This document shows, one piece after another, positions 9,040 through 40,834 of a stretch of 64,000 nucleotides of DNA. The number at the start of each line of letters is the position of its first letter. The stretch's first letter is position 1. The position numbers were made by a program, and so were the translations under genes. The stretch is from Larkinella rosea (GTDB taxonomy: Bacteria > Bacteroidota > Bacteroidia > Cytophagales > Spirosomataceae), in assembly GCF_003858635.1 (NCBI RefSeq), contig NZ_RQJO01000008.1, forward strand, positions 806,001-870,000, written 5' to 3'. The notes beneath the pieces were generated by a model. The model was given only the letters and a program-made list of their open reading frames with translations, searched no databases and had not been told where the DNA came from.

Positions 9040-9148
9040 CAGAAAATTTTTACAAGTCTTGATAAGTAGCATGGAGCTGGATGAGTCGTCTGGCAGTAGT
9101 GCTCAGATCGTTACGCGAGTCAGTATCATTAATTTATTGAGTGACTGT

Positions 9149-17450: not shown

Positions 17451-17452
17451 GA

Positions 17453-19090: not shown

Positions 19091-19091
19091 T

Positions 19092-20135: not shown

Positions 20136-20137
20136 GC

Positions 20138-21331: not shown

Positions 21332-21334
21332 TTC

Positions 21335-22495: not shown

Positions 22496-22500
22496 ATCGT

Positions 22501-23655: not shown

Positions 23656-24193
23656 CAGCCCTTGGACGGTAGCGCAGCGGATCAAAATGATCAGCTGGCA
23701 ATTTGTCTGGGCGATTTTCTGTTCGTGGACGCCTAAACCGGCCAATCCCTGGCGTCTGTTCTGGTTGAGGGCTTTTGGGGCGCAACTGAGCGGAAAACCG
23801 TTTGTGCACCAAAACGCCCGGATTCAGATTCCCTGGAACCTGGTACTTCACGACCGCGCCTGTCTGGGCGACGGTGCCAACGCCTATTCGCTGGACCGGA
23901 TTGAAATTCACGAACATGCCACCGTGGCTCAGGAAGCGTATCTCTGCACCGGAACGCACGCATTCGATCAACCCGCCCGGAACCTGGTCACGGCACCCAT
24001 TGTCATCGGTGCCCACGCTTTTGTCGGTGCCAGATCGTTCATCATGCCGGGCATTACGGTGGGTGCCGAGGCCATTGTGGGGGCGTGTAGTGTGGTGACC
24101 AAAGACGTGCGCCCGTTCGAAGTAGTGGCCGGAAATCCCGCCCGGATCATTCGGAAAAGAGAGTTGACGGCCGTTCGTACGGCCGTAAGTTGA
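23621..24193 (+). CDS. Colanic-acid-type O-acetyltransferase (WcaF-like, left-handed beta-helix)
   Basis: 190 residues from the ATG at 23621; an upstream start at 23570 would only extend the overlap with the previous gene. Hexapeptide repeats (IEIHEHATVAQEAYL, IVIGAHAFVGARSFI, VTVGAEAIVGACSVV-like) and the closing VVAGNPARIIRKRE mark an LbH acyltransferase. The segment YLCTGTHAFDQPARNLVTAP carries the catalytic His of WcaF/NodL-type enzymes. It probably acetylates a sugar of the repeat unit using acetyl-CoA. The 35-base overlap implies translational coupling with the upstream glycosyltransferase. Confidence 0.88.
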   Translation: MIKTHQQASAYDSPWTVAQRIKMISWQFVWAIFCSWTPKPANPWRLFWLRAFGAQLSGKPFVHQNARIQIPWNLVLHDRACLGDGANAYSLDRIEIHEHATVAQEAYLCTGTHAFDQPARNLVTAPIVIGAHAFVGARSFIMPGITVGAEAIVGACSVVTKDVRPFEVVAGNPARIIRKRELTAVRTAVS

Positions 24194-24205
24194 TATTCTT
24201 ACAAA

Positions 24206-25036
24206 ATGATTTCAGTACTTATACTCACCAAGAACGAAGAACAGGATTTGCCGGGTTGTTTACAATCCGTTGCCTGGTGTAACGACATCCACGTTTTTGA
24301 TTCCTTCAGTGACGACAAAACGGTGGATATTGCCCGGGCGGCCGGTGCCACCATCACGCAGCGTAAATTTGACAACTGGGCTGCCCATCAGAACTGGGGC
24401 CTGGCCAATATTCCGTTCAAACACAACTGGGTGCTCTACATCGACGCGGATGAGCGGGTTTCCGAAAAACTGAAAGAGACGCTGTTACGCTTTTCTTCAG
24501 TCGACGCAGAGGTGGTTGCCTACGAAATTCAACGGCGCGATTTTGCCTGGAATGGCCGGTGGCTGAAACACGCCCAGATGTCGCCTTTTTACCTGCGTCT
24601 TTTTCGGCCCGATAAAATGCAGTACAAACGGCTGGTCAACCCGGTTTCCATTCCGGATGGAAAAGTGGCCCGGATCGACGGTTTCCTGGATCATTACCCC
24701 TTCAGTAAAGGCTTTCGGTTCTGGTGGCAGCGGCACCTTAGCTATGCGGATATGGAAGCCGCCATGCGGATGATGGACATGGATGCCGGTACCTCGTTTT
24801 CGTTTCAGAAAGCGGTTTTTAGCACCGATTTTAGCGAACGCCGGTATCATCAGAAGGGCATCTTTTACAAAATGCCCGGTCGTCCGTTCATCAAATGGTT
24901 TTACCTGGCCATCTGGCGACGCGGGTTTCTGGATGGGCGGGCCGGAGTGACCTATGCCGTGCTGCAGGCCGTTTATGAGTACTTCATTGTTCTGAAAACC
25001 AAAGAATTACAAGCTGCGTCCTCGTATCGGGCGTAA
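24206..25036 (+). CDS. GT2-family glycosyltransferase
   Basis: 276 residues, GT-A fold. MISVLILTKNEEQDLPGCL opens the domain. VFDSFSDDKTVDIA gives the first acidic site and NWVLYIDADERVSEKL the metal-binding DxD. The family resembles the WaaE/KdtX group of inverting transferases in LPS and exopolysaccharide loci. There is no membrane helix except a weak C-terminal hydrophobic part. Twelve bases separate it from the acetyltransferase gene; a 131-base gap follows before the WcaI-like gene. Confidence 0.87.
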   Translation: MISVLILTKNEEQDLPGCLQSVAWCNDIHVFDSFSDDKTVDIARAAGATITQRKFDNWAAHQNWGLANIPFKHNWVLYIDADERVSEKLKETLLRFSSVDAEVVAYEIQRRDFAWNGRWLKHAQMSPFYLRLFRPDKMQYKRLVNPVSIPDGKVARIDGFLDHYPFSKGFRFWWQRHLSYADMEAAMRMMDMDAGTSFSFQKAVFSTDFSERRYHQKGIFYKMPGRPFIKWFYLAIWRRGFLDGRAGVTYAVLQAVYEYFIVLKTKELQAASSYRA

Positions 25037-25167
25037 CCCTATACCGGCATCTAAAACCGGTACTCAATCAGGTTTTGGATTGAAATAACGCAGGAGTAAC
25101 CCGTGTAAAAAACCGGTTGATTTCAGTTTAGCAGGGGCTCGTGTGGTATCGCAAACGCAATTACGAA

Positions 25168-26430
25168 ATGAGAATTCTGATTTACGGCATTAATTATTCA
25201 CCCGAGCTCACCGGTATTGGTAAATATACGGGCGAAATGGGGGAGTGGCTGGCCGGAAATAAGCAGGAAGTGGATGTCATTACCGCCATGCCGTATTACC
25301 CGGAATGGGCCGTGCACGCTTCCCACAAACGGAAAGGGTGGCATACCGAATACATCGACGGGGTGCGGGTGCATCGCTGCCCGCTTTATGTACCCACCCG
25401 GGTAACCTCGCTGAAACGCATTCTGCACGAATTTTCCTTCGTGGTCAGCAGTTTGTGGTACTGGCTGCGGGTCTTTTTTGGAAAACGGTACGATGTCGTT
25501 ATCTGCATATCCCCGCCCTTTCACCTGGGGTTGATTCCCGCCATTTACTCCCGGCTGCGCAAGGTGCCATTCTGGTGCCATATTCAGGATTTACAGATTG
25601 ACATGGCCAAGGATTTGGGCATGATCACGAACCGTACGTTTCTGAATACCATGTTTAAAGTCGAATCGTATATTCTGAAGCGGTGCAGTGCGATTTCGAC
25701 CATCAGCGAAGGAATGCTTCAGAAGGTAAAACTGAAAAACGGGGCTGGTTCCAAGTGCGTTCTGTTTCCGAACTGGGTCGATAGCACCCACATAAAACCG
25801 GTGCCGAAACCCCATTCGATGCGCGCCGAACTGGGCTTGCTGGATTCGGATCGGGTCATCCTCTATTCCGGAAGTCTGGGCGAAAAACAAGGGCTGGAAA
25901 TCATTATCGCAGCCGCCCAGTCATTCGCGCAACAGCCGGATATCAAGTTTCTGATTGTTGGATCGGGCGGAGGAAAAACGAAGCTGGAAGCAACCGTTCG
26001 GGAATACGGATTAACGAATGTCGTGTTTCACCCGTTACAGCCGTATGAAAAATTGTCGGCTCTTTTGGGAACGGCCGATATCCACCTGGTCTTACAGAAA
26101 AAATCGGCTTCCGATCTGGTTCTTCCTTCAAAACTAACCGGAATTCTGGCTGCTGGCGGTTGTGCGCTGGTTTCGGCTGTTCCCGGCACCACCCTGTATG
26201 ACGTTGTACACCGGCATGAAATGGGAATTCTGATTGAGCCGGAATCAGCTCAGGCATTGGAAGTAGCCATTGAACAAGCACTTTCTATGGATTTAAGTCC
26301 CTACCATACCAATGCCAGATGGTACGCGGAAACGTATTTAAACAAAGAAACGACACTCAACAAGTTCATTGGCGAGTTGCGAAAAATCACCGGTGAACCC
26401 CGTCCTCTGCCACTACTGGTCGATTTATAA
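25168..26430 (+). CDS. WcaI-type colanic acid glycosyltransferase
   Basis: 420 residues from the ATG at 25168; an in-frame GTG at 25141 would add nine residues before the conserved MRILIYGINYSPELTGIGKY, so I prefer the ATG. That opening plus ITAMPYYPEWAV, PFWCHIQDLQIDMAKDLG and ILYSGSLGEKQGLEII are hallmarks of the WcaI family. It is a GT4-like enzyme of colanic-acid-type loci. It is the last gene of the exopolysaccharide operon. Confidence 0.9.
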   Translation: MRILIYGINYSPELTGIGKYTGEMGEWLAGNKQEVDVITAMPYYPEWAVHASHKRKGWHTEYIDGVRVHRCPLYVPTRVTSLKRILHEFSFVVSSLWYWLRVFFGKRYDVVICISPPFHLGLIPAIYSRLRKVPFWCHIQDLQIDMAKDLGMITNRTFLNTMFKVESYILKRCSAISTISEGMLQKVKLKNGAGSKCVLFPNWVDSTHIKPVPKPHSMRAELGLLDSDRVILYSGSLGEKQGLEIIIAAAQSFAQQPDIKFLIVGSGGGKTKLEATVREYGLTNVVFHPLQPYEKLSALLGTADIHLVLQKKSASDLVLPSKLTGILAAGGCALVSAVPGTTLYDVVHRHEMGILIEPESAQALEVAIEQALSMDLSPYHTNARWYAETYLNKETTLNKFIGELRKITGEPRPLPLLVDL

Positions 26431-26870
26431 TCAATACCGGTTTTGACAAGGCTGATCGTGTTTTAATGATAGTCCGGATAAGCCGGGTCTGGGCAGATAC
26501 TTACAGCTCATTTGGCCACGTAATGCACAGAGTATAATTACTTATTTATAAAATTACGCCATATACTAAATTAAGCGACTGGAAATAGTGCAATGGATTC
26601 TCATTTGTTGGATTATAAAGTATCTTTAAGTCTTAAAACTGCTCGTTAATTGGATTATTTCCCATTAAAATAGTACAATTAGTGAAGCGCGCAACAAGCG
26701 GTTTGCAAAGCAAAAAAAATGAGAAAATATTTTTATTGAACACGCCGGACTGCAGCGGTTTTTACGTAAAAAAACAAACAAAAACATAAATACATTTCAT
26801 TTAAAATATTAATATAATTATATAAATACTTGAATAGATTTATTTTTTAATACCAAGGAATTGATTTAGA
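26431..26870. other. AT-rich control region upstream of the NRPS-PKS gene
   Basis: 440 bases without a gene. From about 26690 the sequence is strongly AT-rich with poly-A and poly-T tracts, contrasting with the coding DNA on both sides. No clear terminator for the upstream operon is visible. It must contain the promoter of the natural-product cluster, but no sharp -7 element could be chosen. Confidence 0.5.
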
Positions 26871-29800
26871 ATGGAAACCCTGAATGAACCAAACATGCTT
26901 TTGGGTGCAATCCAGAAGACCGTAATCGATTTGTTTGCTGAGCAAGTTAGCAAGGCACCGGATCGTATTGCGGTTTTTTTTGATAAGCAGGGTATTACCT
27001 ACCAGGAACTGGATGAGAAATCAAACCAGTTGGCTCGTTTTCTAATCAAAAAAGGAGTCAGAGCCGAAACGCTTGTCCCCATTTGTGTCAATCGCTCGCT
27101 GGAGATGATCATTGGCCTTTTGGGCATTCTGAAAGCGGGTGGGGCCTACGTTCCGCTTGACCCGGAATATCCGATTGACCGAATCAATTACAGTTTGGCG
27201 GATGTGGCTGCGGAAGTGATTCTGGCCGATAATCATTCGGTTCAGGTGCTGAAAGAAGGCAATAAAAACGCGGTAGTTATTGATTTAAATACGGATTGGG
27301 AAACGATAGCACTCGAATCAAAAGAAAGCGTGCAGCGCGTTATAACATCCGATAATCTGGCGTATGTCATTTATACATCCGGATCAACCGGGCGACCAAA
27401 AGGCGTTTTAATTGAACACCGTAGTTTGTTCAATTTCATACAAAATCAATCCATTGAATTCGCAATAAATGAAGAAGAAATAATTCTTCAAACCAGTAAT
27501 TATGCGTTTGATCCGGCTACTGAACAGATTTTTCTGGCGTTATGTAACGGTGCCAAATTGGTATTAATTCGGAAAGAATCTCTTTTTAATCCGGATGAAA
27601 TAACCCGACTGATTACGGAGCAAAATATTACGCACCTTCACGCAACACCGAGCTTATTGCGGTATATACCCGCTGACAAATACAGTAATTTAAAAAGAGT
27701 GGTTTCGGCGGGTGAAATCTGCCCGCCCGATCTCGCATCGGCCTGGGGTACGAAGGTACAATTTTATAACAAATACGGCCCCACCGAAGCCACAATAAGT
27801 TCAATTCAATACCGGTATTCGTCGGTCGGTCATCCGGAACGTGCCGTACCGATTGGGACGCCAATTGCCAATACGGAGATTTATATTTTAGACGAAACCG
27901 GGAATAAAGTTGCTGCCGAAACGGCTGGCGAAATCTACATTGGAGGGGCGGGTGTGGCACGCGGTTACCTCAATAATCCGCAGCTTACGGCCGAAAAATT
28001 CATTGCTAATCCGTTTGGTAATACACCCGGCGACCGGCTTTACAAAACCGGTGATACGGCAAAGTGGTTGGCGGATGGCACCATTGAATACATTGGCCGA
28101 ATCGACGATCAGGTGAAAATCCGAGGCCATCGCATTGAGTTGAGCGAGATAGAAACCGTATTGGGTGGCCACGAAGCTATTGATCAATGCGTTGTCATTT
28201 CCCAGCCGGATCGTAACACCGGCCAGCGACTGGTTGCGTATGTGGTTGTCAACCGGGCAATCGATAACGCAGTTATCAAAGCGTATTTAGCGGGTAAATT
28301 ACCCGAATATATGTTGCCGTCGTTGGTTGTCCAGATAGCCGCATTTCCGTTGACTTTTAACGGAAAAATCGATAAAAAAGCACTGCCAAAACCGGAAGGA
28401 GTACGTCCGGTTCTGTCCAGTTTATACATCGCTCCGGTTTCGCCAATCGAGCAAACCATTGAAACCATTTGGGCCGAAATATTACAGGTAGATAAAGTTG
28501 GAGTTGAAGATAATTTTTTTGAACTGGGCGGTAATTCGTTACTGGCTATTTCGGCAGTAACGCTGTTGAAAAAACGGTTTGGTTATACGCTGCCGATTAC
28601 AAAATTGTATCAACAGCCAACCATTAAAGCACTGGCGGTATTTTTAGCAGCAGAAAAGAACCGTAAGGCAAAACAGGTAAAAATCAAAGAGGCAACCGAT
28701 ACCCAGGATATTGCAGTAATTGGTATGGCGGGTCGATTCCCCGGTGCCGACTCCATTGACGCACTTTGGACTATTTTAAAAACCGGTCAGGAAACCACCC
28801 ATTTTTTCACCGAAGAAGAGCTGGATAAATCCATCCCAACGGGTCTGCGGAATGATGCCGACTATGTAAAAGCGCGGGGAGTTATTCAGAAAGCCGACGA
28901 ATTTGATCCCCTGTTTTTTGGAATTAACCCGCGTCTGGCGGAGTTGATGGACCCGCAGCACCGTATCTTTCTGGAGATAGCCTGGGAAGCCCTCGAGAGT
29001 GCCGGGTATGATCCTCAGAAATACGACGGACCAATTGGTGTTTTTGGCGGTTGCCGGAACAATACGTACTACTATACCAACGTCCTGCCGAATGCCGAGC
29101 TGGTCGAACGGGTCGGCAGCTTTCAGGTAATGACGGCCAATGACAAGGATTACATTGCAACCCGGACGGCTTACGCCCTGAATCTGAAAGGCCCGGCCGT
29201 GACGGTGCAATCGGCCTGTTCCACGTCCCTGCTGGCCATTGCCCAGGCCGTCGACAGCATCCGGAATGGGCAGTGTGAGATGGCGCTGGCGGGTGGTGCC
29301 GCCATTGCCCAGCCGATCAACAGCGGGTATCTGTATCAGGAAGGGGCCATGTTGAGCAACGACGGCCATTGCCGCCCGTTTAGCGCCGATGCACAGGGAA
29401 CGGTTTTCAGCGATGGCGCGGGCATCGTTCTGCTGAAAGGTCTGGAAGCAGCCCGGCGGGATGGCGATACGGTTTTTGCGGTGATCAAAGGCGTTGGCGT
29501 CAACAACGACGGGGGCGGAAAAGGCAGTTTCACGGCCCCGAACGCCGAGGGACAGGCGGGCGCTATTGCGATGGCGTTGCAGGATGCCCAGGTTGATCCC
29601 GCGACCCTGAGTTACATCGAAGCCCACGGAACCGCCACGCCCATCGGCGATCCGATCGAAATTGAAGGATTGAAAATGGCGTTCGGTGAGCTGCCATTTA
29701 CCCAATTCTGCGCCATTGGTTCCATCAAAAGCAACATGGGGCACCTGACAACGGCGGCCGGCGTGGCCGGATTCATCAAAACCGTGTTGTCGCTGCACCA

Positions 29801-32800
29801 CAAACAACTGCCGTCATCCATCCATTTTACGGCCCCCAACCCGGCCATTGATTTCAGCAATAGTCCTTTCTTTGTGAATACCGAGTTTCGGGACTGGTCG
29901 TCGGTGCTGGGTCCGCGCCGGGCGGGCGTCAGTTCTTTCGGCGTTGGCGGCACGAACGTCCACGTTGTGCTGGAAGAATATGCGGAAGAAATACCGGTCG
30001 AAAAGCTGGAAAAACCGGTGGCTGCCCGAACCGCACAGTTACTGACGTGGTCGGCCAAATCCACCACCAGCCGTGAGCAGTATGGCGCTTTGCTGGCCGA
30101 TCACCTGCGCCAAAACCATCATCTGGATCTGGCGGATGTTGCTTTTACGCTGCACACGACCCGGGCGGCTTTTGCTCACCGGCGGTTTTTGGTGGCCGAC
30201 GCCGGCGAGGAGCTGACGGAAAAACTCCGGGCTACAGCAGCAGGCGAAACAAAATCGATCAGTGCGCGTCCGGGCGAAGTGGCTTTTATGTTTCCGGGAC
30301 AGGGCGCCCAATACCTCAACATGGGCCGCGAGCTGTACGAATCCGAGCCCGTTTACCAGCAGGCTATCGATGAATGTGCCGAGCTGTTGAATGCCTACCT
30401 GGAAACCGATATTCGCCGGATCATTTATCCGGACGAGGCAAACCGGAAAGCCGAAGAAAACCTGAAAAATACGCGGTTTACCCAGCCCGCTCTTTTTGTT
30501 ACCGAATACGCGCTGGCCAAACTCTGGATGAGCTGGGGCATTGAGCCCTCCCTGTTTTGCGGCCACAGCATCGGCGAATTTGTGGGCGCGCATCTGGCGG
30601 GCGTTTTCAGCCTGGCCGATGCCTTGAAACTAATTACCATCCGCGGACGGCTGGTGAGCGAAATGCCGCGCGGAAGCATGCTTTCGGTGCGGATGGAAGC
30701 CGAAAAAATCGGCGCACTCATGCCTGAACCCTTGTCGATTGCCGCCATTAACAGCCATAAATTGTGCGTGGTAGCAGGTCACGACGAAGACATTGCGGCT
30801 TTTGCCAGCGTGCTGGATAGTCAGGGAATCCCGAACCGGGTGCTGGAAACGAGCCACGCGTTTCACTCGGTCATGATGGAACCGGTAGTGGCAGACTTCA
30901 AAAAAGTGGTTGACGAAGTGGTGCTGAACCGGCCCCGGAAACGCATCCTTTCGACCGTTACCGGAACCTGGCTGACGGACGCTCAGGCGACGGATTCGGA
31001 CTACTGGGCGAAACACCTGCGGCTAACGGTCCGGTTTTCGGCGGCTCTGGAATCTATACTTAATCTAAATCAGCCGCTGTTAATCGAAGTGGGCCCCGGC
31101 AATGCCACCACGACGTTCGCGCGTCAACAGGCGGGTGCCCGGCCGGTGAACGTGGTGACGAGTCTGGACAAAAAAGGGGCGCAGACCGAATACACCTCCC
31201 TGCTGAAAGGCCTGGGGCAACTTTGGATCAATGGTCTGGAACCCGACTGGCAGGCGTTTCATGCCCACCAAAACCAGGTTAAACTGACTTTACCAACCTA
31301 TGCTTTTGACCGGAAACGCTATTGGGTCGATCCGGTTATTCCCGCGCTATCCGCGCAAACTTCCTATCCATCAACGATTCCGGTAGCGTCTCAGCTACAA
31401 GTTGACAATTTTGCTGACACCTCTCTATCTATTGTTCCCATGAGAAAAGAAGTATTAATCAACAAAGTGAAAGAAATGCTGGAGAATGCCTCCGGCGTGG
31501 AGATGGAAGACGTGACTGCGGATATGAGTTTTCTGGAAATGGGACTCGATTCGCTACTCCTGACGCAGGTATCGTTAACGTTAAAGAAAGAGTTCGGTTT
31601 GCCGATTACCTTCCGGCAGTTGAACGAAGAATACGCGACGATCGACGCCCTCGTCGACTACCTCGATCGTCACTTACCCGCTGAAGCCTATAAACCCCAA
31701 CCGGTTTCGCAACCTGTCTACCCACAACCAGCGCCAGCACCCCTACCCACGGCAGCCCCGGTTTCGGCTCCGGTCTTCCCGAATCCGATAAGCGTACAAG
31801 CGCACAGCGATTCCGTTCTGGACCTGATGGCCCGGCAACTGCAGATCATGGCACAGCAGATTGCGGTGATGCAGGGCGCACAGCTACAGCAACCTTCGTT
31901 GCCTCCCATTCCTTCAGCGGCCCCTCCGGCCAGTCAGAACGAAAAACCGGTCAATGGAAAACCGGTCGTTGCCAAAACCCCGGATCTGACACCCGAAGAA
32001 GAAATTGAAATTAAAAAACCGTTTGGCGCCAGCGCCCGCATCGAACGGCAGATTACGGAATTAAGCCCCAAACAAAAGACGTTTTTGCAACAACTCACCA
32101 GCCGGTATAACCAGAAAACCGTCGGGAGTAAGAATTATACGCAGGAACACCGGTCCTACATGGCCGATCCGCGGGTGGTTTCGGGCTTTAAACCGCTGAC
32201 CAAAGAACTGGTTTACTCAATCGTCATCAATAAATCGAAAGGAAGCCGGTTGTGGGATGTCGATGGCAACGAATACATCGACATGCTGAACGGTTTTGGC
32301 TCGAACATGTTCGGGTATCAGCCGGAATTTGTCAAAAAAGCGCTCTATAGTCAGATCGAAAACGGATTTGAAATCGGGCCGCAGCACGCCCTCGCGGGCG
32401 AGGTCAGCCGCCTGATCTGTGAGTTTACCAAGTTCGACCGGGCGGCTTTGTGCAGCACCGGTTCCGAAGCCGTGCTGGGCGCCATGCGGATTGCCCGCAC
32501 CGTTACGGGCCGTTCGCTGATTGTGGCGTTCACCGGTTCATACCACGGCATTGTGGATGAAGTGATTGTGCGGGGCAGCAAAAAACTGAAGTCGTATCCG
32601 GCTGCGCCGGGTATCATGCCGGAATCCGTCCAGAACATGCTGATTCTGGATTACGGTACGGACGAAAGTCTGAAAATCATCAAGGAACGGGCGCACGAAT
32701 TGGCGGCTGTTTTGGTCGAACCGGTACAAAGCCGACGCCCGGAGTTTGTCCCGATCGAGTTTCTGAAAGAAGTGCGCAAAATCACGGCAGCTGCGGGAAC

Positions 32801-33566
32801 GGCCCTGATTTTTGATGAAGTGATTACCGGTTTTCGGATGCACCCCGGCGGAACACAGGCGATGTTCGGAATCAAAGCCGATCTGGCGTCCTACGGGAAA
32901 GTGGTGGGCGGGGGTATTCCCATCGGGATTATTGCGGGCGATAAAGACTACATGGACGTGCTCGACGGCGGTTTCTGGCAATACGGCGATGCGTCGTTCC
33001 CCGAAAAAGGAGTGACGTATTTTGCCGGTACATTTGTCCGGCACCCGCTGGCACTGGCCACGGCCAAAGCGTCGCTGCTCCACCTGAAAGAAGTCGGCCC
33101 CGGTTTGCAGAAAGGACTCACCAGCAAGGCTGAACGCATTGCCCGGGAACTGAACGCCGAATTCGACCGCCATCAGATTCCGCTCTACGTGGCCCAGTTT
33201 GGCTCGCTCTGGAAAATCAAGCCGAAAGAAGAAATCCCGTACGGCGAACTCCTTTTTGTGTTGATGCGCGAAAAAGGCATTCACATCTGGGACGGTTTTC
33301 CGTGTTTCATTACCGAAGCCCATACCGACGCCGAAATCGATCTGGTGCTCAAGCGGTTTTTCGAATCCATTCAGGAACTGATCGAGGCCGATATTTTTAA
33401 ATCGAATCCGAGAGCGGTTTTGCCAAAAGAAAAAACCGAACGCCCTTACGCGTTCAATCAGCCGCCAACGCCCGGCGCCCGGCTGGGTCGCGATCAGGAC
33501 GGCAATCCGGCCTGGTTCATCGCCGACCCGGATCAGCCGGGGCATTATTTGCAGATTAAAATTTGA
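26871..33566 (+). CDS. Hybrid NRPS-PKS: A-PCP-KS-AT-ACP-aminotransferase
   Basis: 2231 residues. Adenylation domain at 14-515 (YTSGSTGRPKG near 168; NKYGPTE near 300; NGKIDKKALP near 498), with FDPATEQ giving the Asp expected for amino-acid binding. PCP with GGNSL, Ser about 556. Ketosynthase 612-1040 with Cys783 (QSACSTSL), His919 (EAHGTATP) and His958. Acyltransferase 1137-1430 with GHSIGEF, Ser1233, and HAFH 1329-1332, usually malonyl-CoA specific. ACP with Ser1561 (MGLDSLL). A Pro/Gln-rich linker 1605-1720. A class III PLP aminotransferase 1725-2165 with SYGKVVGGG, Lys2010. No condensation, ketoreductase or release domain. It should load a starter, extend once with malonate and turn the beta-ketone into an amine, as in MycA/McyE-type enzymes. 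The A-PCP part is markedly more AT-rich than the KS-AT part. Confidence 0.93.
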   Translation: METLNEPNMLLGAIQKTVIDLFAEQVSKAPDRIAVFFDKQGITYQELDEKSNQLARFLIKKGVRAETLVPICVNRSLEMIIGLLGILKAGGAYVPLDPEYPIDRINYSLADVAAEVILADNHSVQVLKEGNKNAVVIDLNTDWETIALESKESVQRVITSDNLAYVIYTSGSTGRPKGVLIEHRSLFNFIQNQSIEFAINEEEIILQTSNYAFDPATEQIFLALCNGAKLVLIRKESLFNPDEITRLITEQNITHLHATPSLLRYIPADKYSNLKRVVSAGEICPPDLASAWGTKVQFYNKYGPTEATISSIQYRYSSVGHPERAVPIGTPIANTEIYILDETGNKVAAETAGEIYIGGAGVARGYLNNPQLTAEKFIANPFGNTPGDRLYKTGDTAKWLADGTIEYIGRIDDQVKIRGHRIELSEIETVLGGHEAIDQCVVISQPDRNTGQRLVAYVVVNRAIDNAVIKAYLAGKLPEYMLPSLVVQIAAFPLTFNGKIDKKALPKPEGVRPVLSSLYIAPVSPIEQTIETIWAEILQVDKVGVEDNFFELGGNSLLAISAVTLLKKRFGYTLPITKLYQQPTIKALAVFLAAEKNRKAKQVKIKEATDTQDIAVIGMAGRFPGADSIDALWTILKTGQETTHFFTEEELDKSIPTGLRNDADYVKARGVIQKADEFDPLFFGINPRLAELMDPQHRIFLEIAWEALESAGYDPQKYDGPIGVFGGCRNNTYYYTNVLPNAELVERVGSFQVMTANDKDYIATRTAYALNLKGPAVTVQSACSTSLLAIAQAVDSIRNGQCEMALAGGAAIAQPINSGYLYQEGAMLSNDGHCRPFSADAQGTVFSDGAGIVLLKGLEAARRDGDTVFAVIKGVGVNNDGGGKGSFTAPNAEGQAGAIAMALQDAQVDPATLSYIEAHGTATPIGDPIEIEGLKMAFGELPFTQFCAIGSIKSNMGHLTTAAGVAGFIKTVLSLHHKQLPSSIHFTAPNPAIDFSNSPFFVNTEFRDWSSVLGPRRAGVSSFGVGGTNVHVVLEEYAEEIPVEKLEKPVAARTAQLLTWSAKSTTSREQYGALLADHLRQNHHLDLADVAFTLHTTRAAFAHRRFLVADAGEELTEKLRATAAGETKSISARPGEVAFMFPGQGAQYLNMGRELYESEPVYQQAIDECAELLNAYLETDIRRIIYPDEANRKAEENLKNTRFTQPALFVTEYALAKLWMSWGIEPSLFCGHSIGEFVGAHLAGVFSLADALKLITIRGRLVSEMPRGSMLSVRMEAEKIGALMPEPLSIAAINSHKLCVVAGHDEDIAAFASVLDSQGIPNRVLETSHAFHSVMMEPVVADFKKVVDEVVLNRPRKRILSTVTGTWLTDAQATDSDYWAKHLRLTVRFSAALESILNLNQPLLIEVGPGNATTTFARQQAGARPVNVVTSLDKKGAQTEYTSLLKGLGQLWINGLEPDWQAFHAHQNQVKLTLPTYAFDRKRYWVDPVIPALSAQTSYPSTIPVASQLQVDNFADTSLSIVPMRKEVLINKVKEMLENASGVEMEDVTADMSFLEMGLDSLLLTQVSLTLKKEFGLPITFRQLNEEYATIDALVDYLDRHLPAEAYKPQPVSQPVYPQPAPAPLPTAAPVSAPVFPNPISVQAHSDSVLDLMARQLQIMAQQIAVMQGAQLQQPSLPPIPSAAPPASQNEKPVNGKPVVAKTPDLTPEEEIEIKKPFGASARIERQITELSPKQKTFLQQLTSRYNQKTVGSKNYTQEHRSYMADPRVVSGFKPLTKELVYSIVINKSKGSRLWDVDGNEYIDMLNGFGSNMFGYQPEFVKKALYSQIENGFEIGPQHALAGEVSRLICEFTKFDRAALCSTGSEAVLGAMRIARTVTGRSLIVAFTGSYHGIVDEVIVRGSKKLKSYPAAPGIMPESVQNMLILDYGTDESLKIIKERAHELAAVLVEPVQSRRPEFVPIEFLKEVRKITAAAGTALIFDEVITGFRMHPGGTQAMFGIKADLASYGKVVGGGIPIGIIAGDKDYMDVLDGGFWQYGDASFPEKGVTYFAGTFVRHPLALATAKASLLHLKEVGPGLQKGLTSKAERIARELNAEFDRHQIPLYVAQFGSLWKIKPKEEIPYGELLFVLMREKGIHIWDGFPCFITEAHTDAEIDLVLKRFFESIQELIEADIFKSNPRAVLPKEKTERPYAFNQPPTPGARLGRDQDGNPAWFIADPDQPGHYLQIKI

Positions 33567-33595
33567 TTAAAATATAATTAATCTTAGTTACCTTT

Positions 33596-36500
33596 ATGTC
33601 TGTAACTATACCTACACCCAACGTGATGGCTGTGAGCTTTGATCCTTTTGCCGGTCCGGAAATCGTGCGCGTAGCCCCCGCAACCGAGCCGCAAAAGGAA
33701 ATCTGGACAGCGTGTTTATTGGGGGGCGACAACGCCACCCGCTCGTATAACCTATTGAACTCGTTGCTGTTTCAGGGACCTTTCGATCGGGAGGGTATGG
33801 AGCAGGCTATCCAGACGCTGGTTTGCCGGCACGAAGCCTTGCGGCTGGTGTTCAGCGCCAATGGCGAGCACCTCTGCATTTTCAGGGAATTGCCCATTGC
33901 GGTTGCCTATCAGGACATTTCGGAGAAAACCGCTGAACAGAAAGCGGAGCTCATCGACAGTTACCTGAACCAGGAAACGCGGCATGTTTTTGACTTATTG
34001 AACGGGCCTTTATTTCGGGCGGCTTTATTTAAATTAGCCGATCAGGAACACCGCCTGATTTTAACGACCCACCATAGTACGCGCGACGGCTGGTCGATGG
34101 GCGCGATGCTGCTCGATTTGAGTGCGATTTATACGGCTCAGGTACAGGGTGTTGCGGCTAATTTACCAGCTGCGCTATCGTATAGCCAGTACGCGGAGGA
34201 GCAACTCCGGTTTTCGAACAGTGACGAATACCGGCAAACCGAGGCATTCTGGGTGAACCAGTACAAAAATAACGTACCGGTTTTTGACCTGCCGACGGAT
34301 TTTCCGCGCCCGGCCCTGCGCACGTTCGCCAGCAAACGGCTCGATTATCCGCTGGACAGTGAATTTGTGCTGGCAGTTAAAAAAATGGGTTTGAAGGCCG
34401 GTTGCAGTTTTGTAACCACGCTCCTGGCCGCGTTTGAAGTACTGCTGCACCGCGTTACGGGGCACGAAGATATCACGGTGGGCCTGCCCACGGCCGGACA
34501 GTCCGTCACGGGAAACAACCGGCTGGTCGGGCATTGTGTGAACCTGTTGCCATTGCGAAGCCATCTCGATACGAAGCTGACGTTTACCGAGTTTTTGAAG
34601 GTATGTCGGCAAGCGGTTTTTGACGCCTACGATCACCAGCGGCTGACGTTCAGCAACCTGGTTCGGAAACTGAACATTCCGCGGGATCCGTCGCGGGTGC
34701 CGCTGGTTCCGGTGGTTTTTAATATTGATATGGGCATGAACGATGGCGTTCATTTTGCCGGATTGACCCACCAACTGATCAGCCATCCGAAAGAATACGA
34801 AAATTTTGAATTGTTTTTCAACGCCACCGGCTCCGAAAAAACGTTAACCATTGAATGGTCATATAATACGCAATTGTTTAAAGCTGAAACAATTGATCGG
34901 ATGATGACCGAGTTTACCAATCTCCTGAAAACCGTTGTAGCCTATCCATCCATCGTTATTAGCGAGATCAAATTTATGTCGGAAACAAGTCTATATGAAA
35001 AACTAACCCAATGGAATGACACCCAAGTCGACTACCCGTATCACACGCCCTTACATAAACTGATTGCCCAAACAGCCACTCAACATCCCACCAAAACCGC
35101 TTTACGATTTAATGGGGAGGAGATCAGCTACCGAACCCTCAACGAAACCGCTAATCAACTGGCTCATTATCTGATCGGGAAAGGAATTTCGGAGGGTGAC
35201 ATTGTCGGTATTGCGCTGGATCGTTCGCCGGACATGTTGATCACGTTGCTGGCGGTGTTGAAGGCCGGGGCGGCTTATTTGCCGCTTGATCCGGCGTATC
35301 CGCAGGAACGCGTGACGTTTATGCTGGCGGATTCTTCGGCCCGGATGCTCATTACCTCCCGGAAATACGCGGGCCGGCTGAAAAGTCAGGCGACGGAACT
35401 GCTGGTTGAGGATGCGCTGGCGGAGTCGAAAGTGAACGGAAAAGAAGATCCCGATACGATGGTTTCGGGCGATAACCTGGCGTATGTGCTTTACACTTCG
35501 GGCTCGACGGGCAAGCCGAAAGGCGTTCTGATCGAACACCACAACCTGGTCAACTTTCTGCACAGCATGCAGCAGGAACCGGGGATTAAATCAACGGATG
35601 TATTGCTGGCGGTGACGACGATCTCGTTCGACATCGCGGGTCTGGAATTGTATCTGCCGCTGATCAGCGGTGCGACGGTTTTGCTGGCCGATCCTGCCGT
35701 TACGCGCGACGGACGTTCGTTGCTCGATCTGATTAAAACCGAAAAAGTAAGCATCCTGCAGGCAACGCCCTCGACCTGGCGCATGTTGCTCGATGCCGGA
35801 TGGGAAAAACCATTGCCGCTGAAGGCCCTTTGTGGAGGAGAAGCGATTTCGAACGATCTGGCTGACAAACTGCTTACTAAGTGCGCGGAATTGTGGAATA
35901 TGTACGGCCCTACGGAAACCACCGTCTGGTCGACCGTCAAAAAGCTTCGCAAGGCCGAAATGATTACCATTGGCCGACCCATCAACAATACACAGGTCTA
36001 TATTCTGGACGAATTCCTGAAACCCGTGCCGGAGGGAACGGTGGGTGAAATTTACATCGCGGGCGACGGCGTGGCCCGGGGATATCTGAATCGGCCGGAA
36101 TTGACGGGTGAGCGGTTTTTGGAAAACACGTTCGCGGAGTCGGAAGGGGTCATGTATCGCACCGGCGACCTGGGTAAATTCCTTAAAACCGGCGAAATCC
36201 AGTGCCTGGGCCGCATCGACCAGCAGGTAAAGATTCGCGGACACCGCATCGAACTGGGCGAAATCGAAAACGTCATCACCGCCATTCCGGAGGTGAAAGA
36301 AACCGCCGTTATTGCGCACCCTGTTCGCTCGGGCGATCAGGTGCTGGTGGCCTACGTCGTGCCGGAGTCGATGGCTACGAACGATAAAGCCCCGAGCTGG
36401 CAGGAACGCTGGGACCTGATTTACAACATGGGGGTCAATCACGACAACGGCCAGAAATCGTCGGAGCAGGTGGTTGAACTCGCCATTGCGGAGCAGTTGA

Positions 36501-38839
36501 GCGGGAAAAAAGATGTGAAGGAAGAGATCGACGACTGGGTGCATCAGTCGATCAACCGGATCCGGGCCTTGGCCCCGAAACGGATTATGGAAGTGGGTTG
36601 CGGGGCCGGACAGTTGCTTTTTGAACTGGCACCCGACACCTCGCTGTACATCGGGACGGATTATTCCGCAACAGCTATCGACAACCTGCGGGAAAAACTG
36701 GCGTTGAACACCGCCAAGTGGAAGAACGTCAAAACCGCGGTGGCTCCCGCCGATGATTTCAGTACGGTGGCGCCCGCTTCGCTGGATATGGTACTGATTC
36801 ACAGTGTGGCCCAGTATTTTCCCGATGCGGCCTACCTGCTGCGCGTGATCGAGCTGGCGGTGAAAGCCGTGGCGCAGGGCGGCTGTATTTTTATCGGTGA
36901 TATGCAGGGCAAAGGAACCCTGCGGATGCACCACACCTTCGATCAGTTTCCGCGTTCGTCGGCGGAAAACACCATTGCCGATTTCAAAAAGATTGTCGAC
37001 CGGCGGATGTTCATCGAGGATGAATTCATGGCCGATCCGGCTTATTTTTACCTGTTGCCGCAACTCATTCCGGCCATTTCGGCGGTCGATGTGCAGCTGC
37101 GCGAAGGGAAATTCCTGAATGAAACGACCAAACACCACTACGATATCTGGCTCTACGTCGGCAATCCGCCCGAGGTAGCCACCGCCGATGCCGTTGTCGA
37201 TTGGACCGCGGATTATACCGCTGACAGGCTGGAAGAGCGTCTGTCGACGAATCCACGCGCGGTTTTGCAACTGCGGAATGTTTTCAACAGCCGCACTGCC
37301 GAGGATTACAGCCTGCTTCAGGTGATCGATCACCTGAACGACGATGCGTTGCTGGTGGATGCCAGACAAAAAATGGCCTCTTTCCCGGCCGGAATCAATC
37401 CGGCACTTTTGTGGGCGGCCGGTAAAAAACACCGGTTTACGACGCACGTACGCTGGTCGGGCGACGGTTCCGACAACTTGCTGGACGTGGTTTTCATTCC
37501 GTCGGAACTCGGAAAACGGATTCCAGGTCGGCCTGTAGGCATTGCTGCCGAACACGCTTCGCTCAACGATTTTGCCCGTAATCCTTTCAAACACAACCTG
37601 ATTGTACCTCAGGATCAGGTCAATGAATGGAAGCAGACGATGCGGAAGCAGTTGCCGGACTACATGGTTCCCAACAACTTTGTGGTGCTGGCCAAACTGC
37701 CGCTGACGCCTAACGGGAAAATCGACAAGAAGGCGCTGCCCGATCCGATGCTGGAAGCCAACGAAAACCGCACCGGTTTTATGGCTCCGCGCACGGACGT
37801 TGAAAAGCTGGTGGCCGATATCTGGATGGAATGTTTGCGGCTCGAAAAAATCAGCGTGCTCGATAATTTCTTCGAACTGGGCGGGCACTCCCTGATTGCG
37901 GTGCAGGTAATGACCCGGCTGGAGAAAAAAACCGGTAAACGGCTGCCGCTTTCGATGTTGTTCGAATACCCGACCATCGAAAAACTGGCGTCGACGCTGC
38001 ACATGAACGGCCGGTCGGTGACCTGGGATTCGCTGGTTCCGATCAAACCGCAGGGAACTAAAATTCCGCTGTATATCGTCCACGGTGCGGGTTTGCACGT
38101 CTTGTTGTTCAACACGCTGGCCATCAATATGGACGCCAACCAGCCGGTTTATGGCCTTCAGGCGAAGGGAATCAACAGCGACGATGAGCCGCTGGACAGC
38201 ATCGAAGCCATTGCGGCCTATTATATCGATGCGATCATGGCCAAAAATCCGGATGGGCCGTATGCCCTGGCCGGTTATTCGTTCGGGGGGATTATTGCCT
38301 ACGAAATGAGTAAACAATTGCGGGAACGCGGGAAGGAAGTAAAAATGCTGGCGATGTTCGATTCATACGCCGATCAGTCTAATTTTTACGATCCCTGGCT
38401 AAGCCGGTTGTGGAACGATTCGACCACGTTGTTGAAAGAGCGGCTGTACATCTTTACGCTGCTCAAAAAATACCCCGGCGAAACGGTTAGTACGAAAATT
38501 GAATCGCTCAAACGCAAAACGAATCAGTTATACCGCCGGATCCGATACAATGAAGATTACCTGAAGGTGTTTCATGGCAACTACTACAAGGTCAATGAAA
38601 CGAACATTATCGCAGCCCGTAAATACCGGCTCGTCCCGCAGGAAATCAAGATAACCCTATTCCGGGCGAAAAAACAGTTGGCTTATAAACGGGATTTTGA
38701 ATTTTTAGGCTGGAAACCATTCGCGTTAAAAGGCGTAACGATCCACGAAGTTCCGGGCGATCACGTCAATTTATTCACACCACCCAACGACAAGGAGTTT
38801 GCCCGTATTTTGCAAAAAGCGCTAGATAACTGCGCATAA
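33596..38839 (+). CDS. NRPS termination module: C-A(N-methyltransferase)-PCP-TE
   Basis: 1747 residues, 29 bases after the hybrid gene. Condensation domain 20-450 with the complete HHSTRDG motif (His160, Asp164). Adenylation domain from about 480 (YTSGSTGKPKG near 632; MYGPTETTVW; RGHRIELGEIE near 880). A SAM methyltransferase is inserted after that motif, about 935-1250 (IMEVGCGAGQLL), with AQYFPDAAYLL as in NRPS N-methyltransferases. The adenylation end NGKIDKKALP lies near 1373. PCP with GGHSL, Ser1432. Thioesterase 1485-1747 with GYSFGG, Ser1562, and PGDHVNLF supplying His. It should join the beta-amino acyl unit to an N-methyl amino acid and release the product. My manual ten-residue code is D-I-L-T-L-G-M-V-W-K, nearest to glycine codes I remember. 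Confidence 0.93.
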   Translation: MSVTIPTPNVMAVSFDPFAGPEIVRVAPATEPQKEIWTACLLGGDNATRSYNLLNSLLFQGPFDREGMEQAIQTLVCRHEALRLVFSANGEHLCIFRELPIAVAYQDISEKTAEQKAELIDSYLNQETRHVFDLLNGPLFRAALFKLADQEHRLILTTHHSTRDGWSMGAMLLDLSAIYTAQVQGVAANLPAALSYSQYAEEQLRFSNSDEYRQTEAFWVNQYKNNVPVFDLPTDFPRPALRTFASKRLDYPLDSEFVLAVKKMGLKAGCSFVTTLLAAFEVLLHRVTGHEDITVGLPTAGQSVTGNNRLVGHCVNLLPLRSHLDTKLTFTEFLKVCRQAVFDAYDHQRLTFSNLVRKLNIPRDPSRVPLVPVVFNIDMGMNDGVHFAGLTHQLISHPKEYENFELFFNATGSEKTLTIEWSYNTQLFKAETIDRMMTEFTNLLKTVVAYPSIVISEIKFMSETSLYEKLTQWNDTQVDYPYHTPLHKLIAQTATQHPTKTALRFNGEEISYRTLNETANQLAHYLIGKGISEGDIVGIALDRSPDMLITLLAVLKAGAAYLPLDPAYPQERVTFMLADSSARMLITSRKYAGRLKSQATELLVEDALAESKVNGKEDPDTMVSGDNLAYVLYTSGSTGKPKGVLIEHHNLVNFLHSMQQEPGIKSTDVLLAVTTISFDIAGLELYLPLISGATVLLADPAVTRDGRSLLDLIKTEKVSILQATPSTWRMLLDAGWEKPLPLKALCGGEAISNDLADKLLTKCAELWNMYGPTETTVWSTVKKLRKAEMITIGRPINNTQVYILDEFLKPVPEGTVGEIYIAGDGVARGYLNRPELTGERFLENTFAESEGVMYRTGDLGKFLKTGEIQCLGRIDQQVKIRGHRIELGEIENVITAIPEVKETAVIAHPVRSGDQVLVAYVVPESMATNDKAPSWQERWDLIYNMGVNHDNGQKSSEQVVELAIAEQLSGKKDVKEEIDDWVHQSINRIRALAPKRIMEVGCGAGQLLFELAPDTSLYIGTDYSATAIDNLREKLALNTAKWKNVKTAVAPADDFSTVAPASLDMVLIHSVAQYFPDAAYLLRVIELAVKAVAQGGCIFIGDMQGKGTLRMHHTFDQFPRSSAENTIADFKKIVDRRMFIEDEFMADPAYFYLLPQLIPAISAVDVQLREGKFLNETTKHHYDIWLYVGNPPEVATADAVVDWTADYTADRLEERLSTNPRAVLQLRNVFNSRTAEDYSLLQVIDHLNDDALLVDARQKMASFPAGINPALLWAAGKKHRFTTHVRWSGDGSDNLLDVVFIPSELGKRIPGRPVGIAAEHASLNDFARNPFKHNLIVPQDQVNEWKQTMRKQLPDYMVPNNFVVLAKLPLTPNGKIDKKALPDPMLEANENRTGFMAPRTDVEKLVADIWMECLRLEKISVLDNFFELGGHSLIAVQVMTRLEKKTGKRLPLSMLFEYPTIEKLASTLHMNGRSVTWDSLVPIKPQGTKIPLYIVHGAGLHVLLFNTLAINMDANQPVYGLQAKGINSDDEPLDSIEAIAAYYIDAIMAKNPDGPYALAGYSFGGIIAYEMSKQLRERGKEVKMLAMFDSYADQSNFYDPWLSRLWNDSTTLLKERLYIFTLLKKYPGETVSTKIESLKRKTNQLYRRIRYNEDYLKVFHGNYYKVNETNIIAARKYRLVPQEIKITLFRAKKQLAYKRDFEFLGWKPFALKGVTIHEVPGDHVNLFTPPNDKEFARILQKALDNCA

Positions 38840-38870
38840 ACCTGCTATTCTCCTGCTTGTCGTTTACTAG

Positions 38871-38909
38871 GTTTTAACGGCGTATTTCGTTGAGATACGT
38901 CGTTAAAAC
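38871..38909 (+). other. Long stem-loop between NRPS and oxygenase genes
   Basis: The arms G-TTTTAACGGCGTAT (38871-38885) and ATACGTCGTTAAAA-C (38895-38909) pair over 15 positions with a single G-T, around a nine-base loop. No T-tract follows, so it is not a classical terminator. It sits 60 bases before the next ATG and could be an RNA-processing or stability element, a partial terminator, or a protein-binding palindrome. Confidence 0.55.
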
Positions 38910-38968
38910 TCACCTTCCTGCGCTCTCCATACCAAAATTATAGTAGTTAACCCTAACTCTTTTCAATC

Positions 38969-39841
38969 ATGCAACCGATAGAAAAAGAAGAATTAGAGAT
39001 AGAAAGAATCGATTCGATCAGCTACGAAGAATTTGTAGAAAATTACGTAAAACCCGGAAAACCGGTGGTTTTTAAAAAGGCATTTACAAGCTGGAACGTC
39101 AAACAACCGTTCGATCCGGCTTTTTTTAAAAAGCATTTCGGGAATTATACGACGACGCATAAGGATAAAACCTATACGATGAGTGAGGTCCTGGACATCA
39201 CCGAGAAAAGCACGCCCGAAAACCCGGCACCGTATCCGATGGGCTTTGAGTTGCGGTCGCAACTGCCGGAGTTTATGGCGATGCTGAACCCGATTCACAT
39301 GAACTATGCGTTTCCGAACTGGTTCAAAAGCAGGCTGATACCCAAAAGCCGGTTTGGGAACGACATGCAGATGTACATCGGCGGAGTTGGCAATCAATAC
39401 GTATTACACAAGGACTTATTTCATACCGATGCCTGGGTGACGCAGCTCTACGGGGAGAAGAAGTTCATTGCTTATCCGCGCGATCAGGAAGAGATGCTTT
39501 ACCCGGAAAACAAGGGCACCCGCTCGCCGATCAATTACCTGAAACCGGATTATGAAAAGTATCCGAAATACCGGGACGCAACGCCATTGACCGTGACATT
39601 AACAGCCGGCGAAACCATTTATATCCCGAACGGAATCTGGCATACGACCGTAGCACCCGGTCATAATATTTCCATCGTGGTGGAGCAATTGAGCCGGAAT
39701 AATTTCAACGCCTGGAAACAGGATATTTACGATTACGGCGTCAAGCGCGGACGGTTGAAAGCTATTTTACAATATGGATACGCCACGCTGATTGGCTTGC
39801 TTTTTAAAGCACGAGAAATGGCGGGGCATCAATTTGATTGA
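38969..39841 (+). CDS. JmjC/cupin-8-type Fe(II)/2-oxoglutarate oxygenase, copy 1
   Basis: 290 residues. The fold marks are YVKPGKPVVFKKAFTSW near residues 26-44, the HxD pair in YVLHKDLFHTDAWVTQLYGEKKF, and the distal His in IPNGIWHTTVAPGHNISIV. These give a complete His-Asp-His iron site, and the Gln-Leu-Tyr-Gly-Glu-Lys-Lys strand is typical of cupin-8/FIH-like hydroxylases. It lies directly after the NRPS, with a close paralogue downstream, so hydroxylation of the peptide product or a carrier-bound amino acid is the natural inference. Peptidyl hydroxylation of another protein is an alternative. Confidence 0.82.
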   Translation: MQPIEKEELEIERIDSISYEEFVENYVKPGKPVVFKKAFTSWNVKQPFDPAFFKKHFGNYTTTHKDKTYTMSEVLDITEKSTPENPAPYPMGFELRSQLPEFMAMLNPIHMNYAFPNWFKSRLIPKSRFGNDMQMYIGGVGNQYVLHKDLFHTDAWVTQLYGEKKFIAYPRDQEEMLYPENKGTRSPINYLKPDYEKYPKYRDATPLTVTLTAGETIYIPNGIWHTTVAPGHNISIVVEQLSRNNFNAWKQDIYDYGVKRGRLKAILQYGYATLIGLLFKAREMAGHQFD

Positions 39842-39908
39842 GTCAGGCCTAAAACCGCTTTATTTTACCAGAACCCCTAGTTATTCGAAAATATAAAACT
39901 GTCCGATC

Positions 39909-40754
39909 ATGCAACACGTTGAAAAATTAGATTCGATCAGCTATGATCAGTTTATAGAAAATTACCTGAAACCCGGTATTCCGGTCGTTTTTAAAAATGC
40001 TTCGGCTGCGTGGAAATCCAATCAGCAGTTTAACCCGGATTTTTTTCGGGCGAATTTCGGTAATCATAAAACGACGTATAAAGGCAAGGAATACTCGATG
40101 AACGAAATTCTGGATATCACGGAAAAAAGTACGGTCGACAAGCCGGCTCCGTATCCGATTTTATTCGAAATTCCGCTGCAATTGCCGGAGCTGCTTCCGA
40201 TGATCGATCCGCTCCATATGAACTACGCATTTCCGAACTGGTTTCGGAATAAAGTGATGCCGTACGGGAAATACGGAAACAGCATTCACCTGTTTATCGG
40301 CGGCCCCGGCAACCAGTATTCGCTGCACAAAGACATGTATCATACAAACGCCTGGGTGACGCAGTTATACGGCGAAAAGAAGTTTGTCGTCTTTCCGCGC
40401 GATCAGGAAGAATTGCTTTATCCGAGTAACGCCGGGTTTATTTCGCCGATCAATATTACGAAACCGGATTACGAAAAATACCCCCGGTACAGAGAAGCAA
40501 CGCCGTTGAGCATTGTGTTGAAACCGGGCGAAACCATTTTTATTCCGAACGGCATCTGGCATACGACGGTGGCTGCCAGCCACAACATCTCCCTGATTTT
40601 TGATCAGTTGAATGGTTATAATTTTAAAGCCTGGAAGCAGGATATGTACGATTATGCCAAAAGGAGAGGAACCATGGCAGCCATTGCGAAGTACAGCCTG
40701 GCCCAGACATTGGGATCACTCTGCAAATTAGGCGAGATGACCAAAGCCTTTTAA
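39909..40754 (+). CDS. JmjC/cupin-8-type Fe(II)/2-oxoglutarate oxygenase, copy 2
   Basis: 281 residues, clearly a tandem duplicate of the preceding gene: LDSISYDQFIENYLKPG, the HxD in YSLHKDMYHTNAWVTQLYG, and GIWHTTVAASHNIS. The iron triad is intact, so both copies should be active. Differences concentrate in the middle (FEIPLQLPELLPMIDPL) and in the C-terminus, which fits different positions or substrates. The gene ends 46 bases before a strong terminator that closes the natural-product unit. Confidence 0.82.
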   Translation: MQHVEKLDSISYDQFIENYLKPGIPVVFKNASAAWKSNQQFNPDFFRANFGNHKTTYKGKEYSMNEILDITEKSTVDKPAPYPILFEIPLQLPELLPMIDPLHMNYAFPNWFRNKVMPYGKYGNSIHLFIGGPGNQYSLHKDMYHTNAWVTQLYGEKKFVVFPRDQEELLYPSNAGFISPINITKPDYEKYPRYREATPLSIVLKPGETIFIPNGIWHTTVAASHNISLIFDQLNGYNFKAWKQDMYDYAKRRGTMAAIAKYSLAQTLGSLCKLGEMTKAF

Positions 40755-40800
40755 AACGATGCAGTACGGTTTTTAAAACCGATGGACGAGAAAATGACAA

Positions 40801-40834
40801 CGCCCGATAAATCAGCTTTATCGGGCGTTTTTTA
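40801..40834 (+). terminator. Intrinsic terminator closing the NRPS-PKS/oxygenase unit
   Basis: CGCCCGATAAA pairs perfectly with TTTATCGGGCG over 11 bp around a five-base loop and is followed by TTTTTT. It lies between the plus-strand oxygenase and a convergent minus-strand gene. Confidence 0.9.

Follow-up and report, generated by a model that had tools for sequence, protein, structure and literature searches.

A hybrid nonribosomal peptide synthetase-polyketide synthase locus with paired JmjC oxygenases beside an exopolysaccharide locus in Larkinella rosea

The four-gene locus and its predicted product

A 64,000-nucleotide stretch of the 8.17 Mb genome of Larkinella rosea (hereafter the window; assembly GCF_003858635.1, contig NZ_RQJO01000008.1, positions 806,001 to 870,000 of the forward strand) contains a locus of four genes, in which a hybrid nonribosomal peptide synthetase-polyketide synthase (NRPS-PKS) line of two megaenzymes is followed by two JmjC/Cupin_8 oxygenases. 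The features of this locus, numbered from the first nucleotide of the window, are as follows.

26431..26870, no strand assigned: putative promoter region, an AT-rich intergenic stretch of 440 bases between the last glycosyltransferase gene and gene 1
26871..33566, + strand: gene 1, hybrid NRPS-PKS of 2231 amino acids with the order adenylation (A), peptidyl carrier protein (PCP), ketosynthase (KS), acyltransferase (AT), acyl carrier protein (ACP), class III aminotransferase (AmT)
26871..29000 (end approximate), + strand: 5' part of gene 1 with low third-position G+C, comprising the starter A-PCP and approximately the first 100 KS residues
33596..38839, + strand: gene 2, NRPS of 1747 amino acids with the order condensation (C), A with embedded N-methyltransferase (MT), PCP, thioesterase (TE); A code DILQLGMVW, glycine type
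38870..38908 (approximate), + strand: strong RNA hairpin between gene 2 and oxygenase 1, with an 18-bp stem but lacking a T run
38969..39841, + strand: putative JmjC/Cupin_8 Fe(II)/2-oxoglutarate oxygenase 1, 290 amino acids, HxD...H and Lys conserved
39909..40754, + strand: putative JmjC/Cupin_8 oxygenase 2, 281 amino acids, 61% identical to oxygenase 1
40799..40829, + strand: intrinsic-terminator-like hairpin with a 13-pair stem and a T run

An earlier note on this DNA had described four co-directional genes between a 440-base AT-rich gap and a terminator, and the coordinates agree with it: all four open reading frames (ORFs) lie on the + strand, the gap has the stated length and a G+C content of 0.32 in the bin 26500-26999, and the stem with its T run follows the fourth gene. 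The domain order read for both megaenzymes was likewise borne out by Pfam, which matched A, KS, AT, two carrier stretches, and Aminotran_3 on gene 1, and C, A, a methyltransferase within the C-terminal part of A, PCP, and TE on gene 2. The core motifs claimed to be intact were present on inspection in both megaenzymes and both oxygenases. Gene 1 contained GGNSL in the PCP, ACSTS, EAHGTAT, and KSNMGH in the KS, GHSIG and HAFH in the AT (a motif which we take to be that of malonyl-specific AT domains), MGLDSLL with Ser 1561 in the ACP, and YGKVVGGG with the catalytic lysine in the aminotransferase. Gene 2 contained HHSTRDG (C), EVGCGAG (MT), GGHSL (PCP), and GYSFGG (TE). Both oxygenases matched Cupin_8, showed the HKD and distal NGIWH motifs, and kept the HxD...H triad and a lysine, presumably the 2-oxoglutarate-binding one. 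These intact catalytic motifs ruled out broken or decayed genes in the window.

The aminotransferase of gene 1 is of class III and is fused in cis behind the PKS carrier domain, the arrangement of mycosubtilin synthase MycA, which was also its best Protein Data Bank (PDB) match (6kfu, 6kfm). MycA starts from a fatty acid, and an iturin- or mycosubtilin-like line with a fatty-acid starter, yielding a beta-amino fatty acyl dipeptide, would be in keeping with this nearest solved structure. However, no fatty-acid-activating starter domain was found in gene 1; its first domain scored 452.8 bits against the amino-acid adenylation model TIGR01733 (cut-off, 317.4) and kept the pocket Asp. The starter is therefore an alpha-amino acid, where the earlier note had only a "starter acid", and a fatty acyl product is highly improbable. 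The A code of gene 2 is a close variant of DILQLGMIWK, which was reported for glycine in the consulted excerpt of PMC12283262.

In the assembly line proposed from these domains, the A-PCP of gene 1 would load an alpha-amino acid, KS-AT would add one malonyl unit, and the cis aminotransferase would convert the beta-ketone into a beta-amine by the chemistry known from MycA, so that a beta,gamma-diamino acyl chain results. Gene 2 would use its C domain to couple this chain to glycine, which would be N-methylated, and the TE would free the product either hydrolytically or by cyclization. Both JmjC oxygenases would then hydroxylate the product, perhaps at the starter residue; such a hydroxylation is probable. 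Domains, motifs, and the glycine-type code support, as a prediction, the earlier proposal of a single malonate that becomes a beta-amine, an N-methyl amino acid, and hydroxylation. With a probability of roughly 0.75, genes 1 and 2 would thus be a two-protein hybrid line making a JmjC-hydroxylated amino acid-malonate beta-amine-N-methylglycine, and the Larkinella member, beside an exopolysaccharide locus, of a family in Bacteroidota.

The starter A code of the window is DPEHVAKIS. Glu239 recurs in arginine codes in the excerpt of the survey PMC12283262, and its presence here hints at a side chain that is polar or basic. Inspected by eye, the code has points for a basic and for an amide side chain alike. 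The DPEH code type was also found in module 2 of two loci (L059 and L134), so domains of this type occur in both positions. Third-position G+C of gene 1 stayed at 0.36-0.53 over the first seven bins of 100 codons and then rose to 0.57-0.71, with the step near 29.0 kb, about 100 residues into the KS; this step likely marks a graft of the starter region.

A family with exchanged starters and recurrent oxygenases

A search with the aminotransferase region as the query (E <= 1e-180; the order and phylum samples were even draws that included family genomes) matched 56 of 222 genomes in the family, 31 of 291 in the order, and 13 of 395 in the phylum, and seven of the eight other Larkinella genomes matched at E <= 1e-60. 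A scan of named genomes returned at least 546 stretches encoding an aminotransferase relative, and the best 80 of these were all Bacteroidota by title; the nearest named record among the matches listed was Larkinella terrae, 93% identical over the aminotransferase region (the genome of the window itself, or one very near to it, was possibly left out). In total, 149 loci were examined: 80 came from named genomes and 67 from the family search, to which were added the window and a second copy in the same genome. A usable core gene was present in 146 of them (L118, L122, and L145 were dropped), and removal of identical KS and AmT left 128 unique loci (78 from named genomes, 48 further loci, the window, and the second copy), among which near-duplicates may remain. 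Frame breaks in the core gene occurred in three family genomes (L145, L161, and L173), due to decay or sequencing error.

The window shares with the family the layout of gene 1 and, behind it, an NRPS of one module that carries a TE. Module 2 adjoined gene 1 in 111 of the 128 unique loci, as C-A-PCP-TE in 83, C-A-MT-PCP-TE in 23, and other forms in five, and its code started with DILQ in 81 of 110, 54 of which end in W like the glycine code. A phosphopantetheinyl transferase (PPTase) homologue was located near 73 of the 128. Genes 1 and 2 were fused into a protein of approximately 3960-3980 amino acids in two Spirosoma-group genomes (L062, in the same place as L174, and L172). In three Maribacter loci (L123, L124, and L128), gene 1 was preceded by module 2 and followed, on the same strand, by homologues of PPTase, Wza, and Wzc. 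The threonine-code loci form a separate branch; those without an adjoining module 2 are L119, L183, L184, L187, L188, and L191-L195, and a homologue of a GNAT acetyltransferase (tested in L119) was found just upstream in 10 loci of this class.

Of the gene 1 domains compared, starter A was the least conserved: in the 125 unique loci that have one, pairwise identity had a median of 43% for starter A, 68.5% for KS, 58% for AT, and 73% for AmT. In the excerpts of the surveys consulted, DATKVGEVGK is predicted for asparagine and DFWNIGMVHK for threonine (PMC3547906), the latter code is again related to threonine, and Val236/Gln239 are frequent in proline domains (PMC12283262). With the codes placed in ten classes of our own grouping, at least 20 class changes were needed on the KS-AT-AmT tree, compared with 52-61 in 200 label shuffles, so starter classes track clades yet have been replaced repeatedly. 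The chassis thus appears to be fairly constant and its starter adenylation domain repeatedly swapped, which looks new, the literature search not having been aimed at starter exchange. Third-position G+C of the A domain averaged 0.08-0.14 below the rest of the gene in the DPEH (six loci), DAEQ (three), and asparagine (seven) classes, and was not lowered in the proline-like class (64 loci). The three oxygenase-free Larkinella loci show little step in gene 1; any graft would therefore be older than these loci or has ameliorated in them.

A ketosynthase search identified the second copy, a gene of the same architecture, on contig C12 (L007:2979-19922). Its megaenzymes are 59% and 54% identical to those of the window, with 71.5% in KS, 80.6% in AmT, and 42.4% in the starter A core. 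The two loci share both megaenzymes and a glycine-type second module with MT. In contrast to the window, the second copy has an asparagine-type starter code and its own PPTase, which follows the megaenzymes, and an ABC (ATP-binding cassette) transporter on the opposite strand, whose best NCBIfam match was MsbA, below the cut-off. No oxygenase was found in its flank and no polysaccharide gene within 45 kb, and an MR_MLE-family enzyme and an amidohydrolase lie upstream. The earlier note was right that the window has no dedicated transporter or PPTase; both nevertheless exist in the genome beside the second copy, and of the two PF01648 (PPTase superfamily) proteins found outside the window, one accompanies the second copy and the other lies on contig C17. 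On the KS-AT-AmT tree (FastTree), the window first joined five other Larkinella loci, and next to this group came three DAEQ loci and L134 (supports of 100, 99, and 96), and the nearest rows of the second copy were three other Larkinella loci, all asparagine-coded. A recent duplication was ruled out because the two copies are not sisters. The arrangement of the second copy recurs in three Larkinella loci (L140, L142, and L148), one of which lacks the methyltransferase; across nine Larkinella genomes, the window type occurs in six and the second type in four.

The genome contains three Cupin_8 genes, two of which are oxygenases 1 and 2; the third is matched by one gene in every one of the eight other Larkinella genomes, and no Cupin_8 gene was present in three genomes from the same order. 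The flanks of the 128 core genes (approximately 1.09 Mb) held 22 oxygenase homologues in 15 loci, 12 of the proline-like and three of the DPEH class, compared with none in 20 random regions (400 kb); the wider flanks (800 kb) held one. This recurrent linkage supports a tailoring role for the JmjC pair on a predicted substrate. An alternative explanation is that the pair is a passenger acting on protein, like JMJD5, JMJD6, or FIH. The best PDB matches of oxygenase 1 are indeed the protein hydroxylases JMJD5/KDM8, JMJD6, and FIH, a hairpin separates gene 2 from the pair, and the pair is missing from three of six sister loci. However, homologues recur beside the family in loci which we take to belong to the Cytophagales, Sphingobacteriales, and Chitinophagales, and the only other Cupin_8 gene of the nine Larkinella genomes is present as one copy each, elsewhere. 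A passenger role is therefore unlikely, and tailoring of the NRPS-PKS product is the preferred function.

Several points weigh against the proposed line and its family. The starter code DPEHVAKISK was absent from the literature searched, and the code positions depend on GrsA numbering. Seventeen of the 128 unique loci lack an adjoining downstream module 2, comprising 10 of the 11 loci of the threonine code, four of the D.xF.G code, and the three Maribacter loci. The module 2 code variant DILQ.CMIY, found in 27 of 110 loci, was not met as a printed glycine code. The oxygenase pair was found in three of the six window-type Larkinella loci. The complete four-gene order sought in relatives was likewise present in three of these six, one of them in L. 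terrae KCTC 52001, and, within limited flanks, in none other of the 149 loci; hydroxylation would thus be optional, because the remaining three window-type loci have no oxygenases.

Linkage to polysaccharide loci

The NRPS-PKS genes of the window follow an exopolysaccharide locus on the same strand, with the following features.

9059..9949, + strand: Wza-type polysaccharide export protein (PF02563 above cut-off)
9954..12290, + strand: Wzc-type chain-length determinant with a kinase-like domain (PF13807 above cut-off, PF02706 below)
12403..13071, + strand: initiating sugar transferase (PF02397)
16281..26430, + strand: glycosyltransferases and a hexapeptide protein, including an ORF at 17453-19090 without a Pfam match

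Upstream of these genes, two large related pectate-lyase-like proteins are encoded at 2206-8289, the first with a secretion sorting tail, and relatives of both lie downstream of the cluster in L135.

At least one polysaccharide gene was present in the flank of 88 of the 128 unique loci, the window among them, and at least two in 76. Of 20 random regions, three had at least one such gene and two had two or more; with only 8 kb at either end searched, the corresponding numbers were two and one. Linkage was frequent in the Spirosoma group (31/39), Pedobacter (17/18), Mucilaginibacter (14/18), Larkinella (6/10), and Maribacter (3/3), and in the proline-like (50/64), D.xF.G (18/23), and DPEH (6/6) starter classes; the asparagine (1/7) and threonine (1/11) classes were largely unlinked. 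In 20 other genomes of the family, 17 clusters had a polysaccharide gene within 20 kb on either side versus three of 20 random 20-kb regions, a comparison of 40 kb with 20 kb searched; with one side counted at a time, 16 of 20 had such a gene downstream and 13 upstream. A match to the initiating transferase family PF02397 lay no more than 30 kb from the cluster in 16 of 21 genomes, with 0.97 expected and one cluster counted per genome (15 of 20 when L. rosea is set aside); a naive binomial P of 7e-18 takes no account of relatedness, and the 30-kb distance was picked after the matches had been seen. A weakly Wzc-like gene preceded gene 1 in 30 loci, mostly of Spirosoma, with scores below curated cut-offs in the two members tested, and 29 of 32 Wzc-like ORFs ended no more than 400 bases from gene 1 (median, 105).

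One interpretation is that the product is a building block or an acyl decoration of the exopolysaccharide, or of its lipid-linked precursor, rather than a free secreted metabolite, and members away from such loci, with asparagine and threonine codes, would then make free metabolites, some with their own transporter. The run of Wza, Wzc, initiating transferase, and glycosyltransferase genes into gene 1 on one strand, the excess over random regions and over the single PF02397 match expected, the varied positions and strands of polysaccharide genes between genera, the closely preceding Wzc-like genes, and the unlinked state of the asparagine and threonine classes and of the second copy all argue in its favor. 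On the other hand, no acyl- or aminoacyltransferase that could attach the product was identified, and only one of seven Hymenobacter loci and none in several genera were linked, which speaks against a general rule. Moreover, the genomes are related and so do not count as independent, all random controls came from one family, and the polysaccharide models were partly built from these same neighbors. Co-location could also stem from common regulation or a common insertion site. A role in the exopolysaccharide is thus possible, with the odds against it. More speculative still is the wider proposal that many Bacteroidota build amine-rich beta,gamma-diamino acyl-(N-methyl)glycine units into exopolysaccharide, or hang them on it, by an NRPS-PKS with exchangeable starters, that the window adds JmjC hydroxylation, and that sister lines not located beside polysaccharide genes produce metabolites that are free and exported. 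The adjacency itself looks new; a literature search for a link between NRPS and polysaccharide found nothing. Its occurrence across genera and orders raises the question of whether nonribosomal lines supply polysaccharide decorations.

Known systems and minor features of the locus

The proposed line shares with the MycA module a cis class III aminotransferase after the PKS carrier domain, and differs from it in the amino acid starter, two modules, TE release, and JmjC oxygenases. TAN-1057 comprises beta-homoarginine antibiotics of Flexibacter; as in the window line, a beta-amino acid is joined to an N-methylated residue in a member of Bacteroidota, but a line for TAN-1057 would have to start from a guanidino acid and take up diaminopropionate at module 2 instead of an alpha-amino acid starter and a glycine-type module 2. 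The detoxin and rimosamide lines are also small NRPS-PKS systems that join an amino acid to one malonate, with ketoreduction where the window line would have a transamination. The vicinal-diamine motif carried by the predicted product is, to our knowledge, rare in natural products.

The closest tabulated relative is C6XWU5 of Pedobacter heparinus, listed in Table 2 of PMC3870968 (2013) as A-CP-KS-AT-CP-PLP1 with the prediction Nrp-Mal-Gly-Pk, that is, with an identical gene 1 layout and a predicted amino acid, malonate, and glycine; the excerpt of that source mentions no product, JmjC genes, starter exchange, or polysaccharide linkage for this entry. The cluster had been called undescribed in the earlier note, which stands for the product, since none was found for this line in the literature searched (many subscription papers lay outside the search), and does not stand for the gene 1 layout, which was tabulated in 2013 and has many relatives. 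A survey of 600 Bacteroidetes genomes assigned 2,594 clusters to 306 families and found MIBiG entries grouping with 12 of these, and its excerpt held no TAN-1057 gene cluster (PMC9248904). The consulted part of a genome announcement (PMC7272551) gives only the annotation of NRPS and PKS clusters in two Spirosoma, and a review (PMC13211072, in excerpt) describes an NRPS-PKS cluster of a root community as essential for fungal suppression. The hybrid line of known enzymology is the ordinary part of the locus, and the wide chassis family, the starter exchange, the frequent polysaccharide neighbors, and the recurrent JmjC neighbors are the surprising part. A single odd cluster thereby becomes a family open to testing, in which nature has already tried the exchange of starter domains on a fairly fixed hybrid chassis, and which is useful for assembly-line engineering.

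Promoter scans gave no signal above chance: the scanned region held eight sigma-70 matches compared with 15.0 in shuffles, and 24 matches to the Bacteroidota -7 motif compared with 37, none of the 24 inside 26431-26870. The hairpin between gene 2 and oxygenase 1 had a z of -4.3, and none of 200 shuffles was equally good. A hairpin of similar length and different sequence occupies the same place in L. terrae (L129; z -3.3), and a weaker one lies in the corresponding gap of L130 (z -2.1). A genome search for the hairpin gave no second match, and a dispersed repeat was rejected. It is possibly a processing or attenuation element, and because it parts gene 2 from the oxygenases, a single four-gene transcript is not certain. 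An antisense open frame of 908 amino acids (35591-38317, - strand) runs across gene 2 and is most likely a by-product of codon usage.

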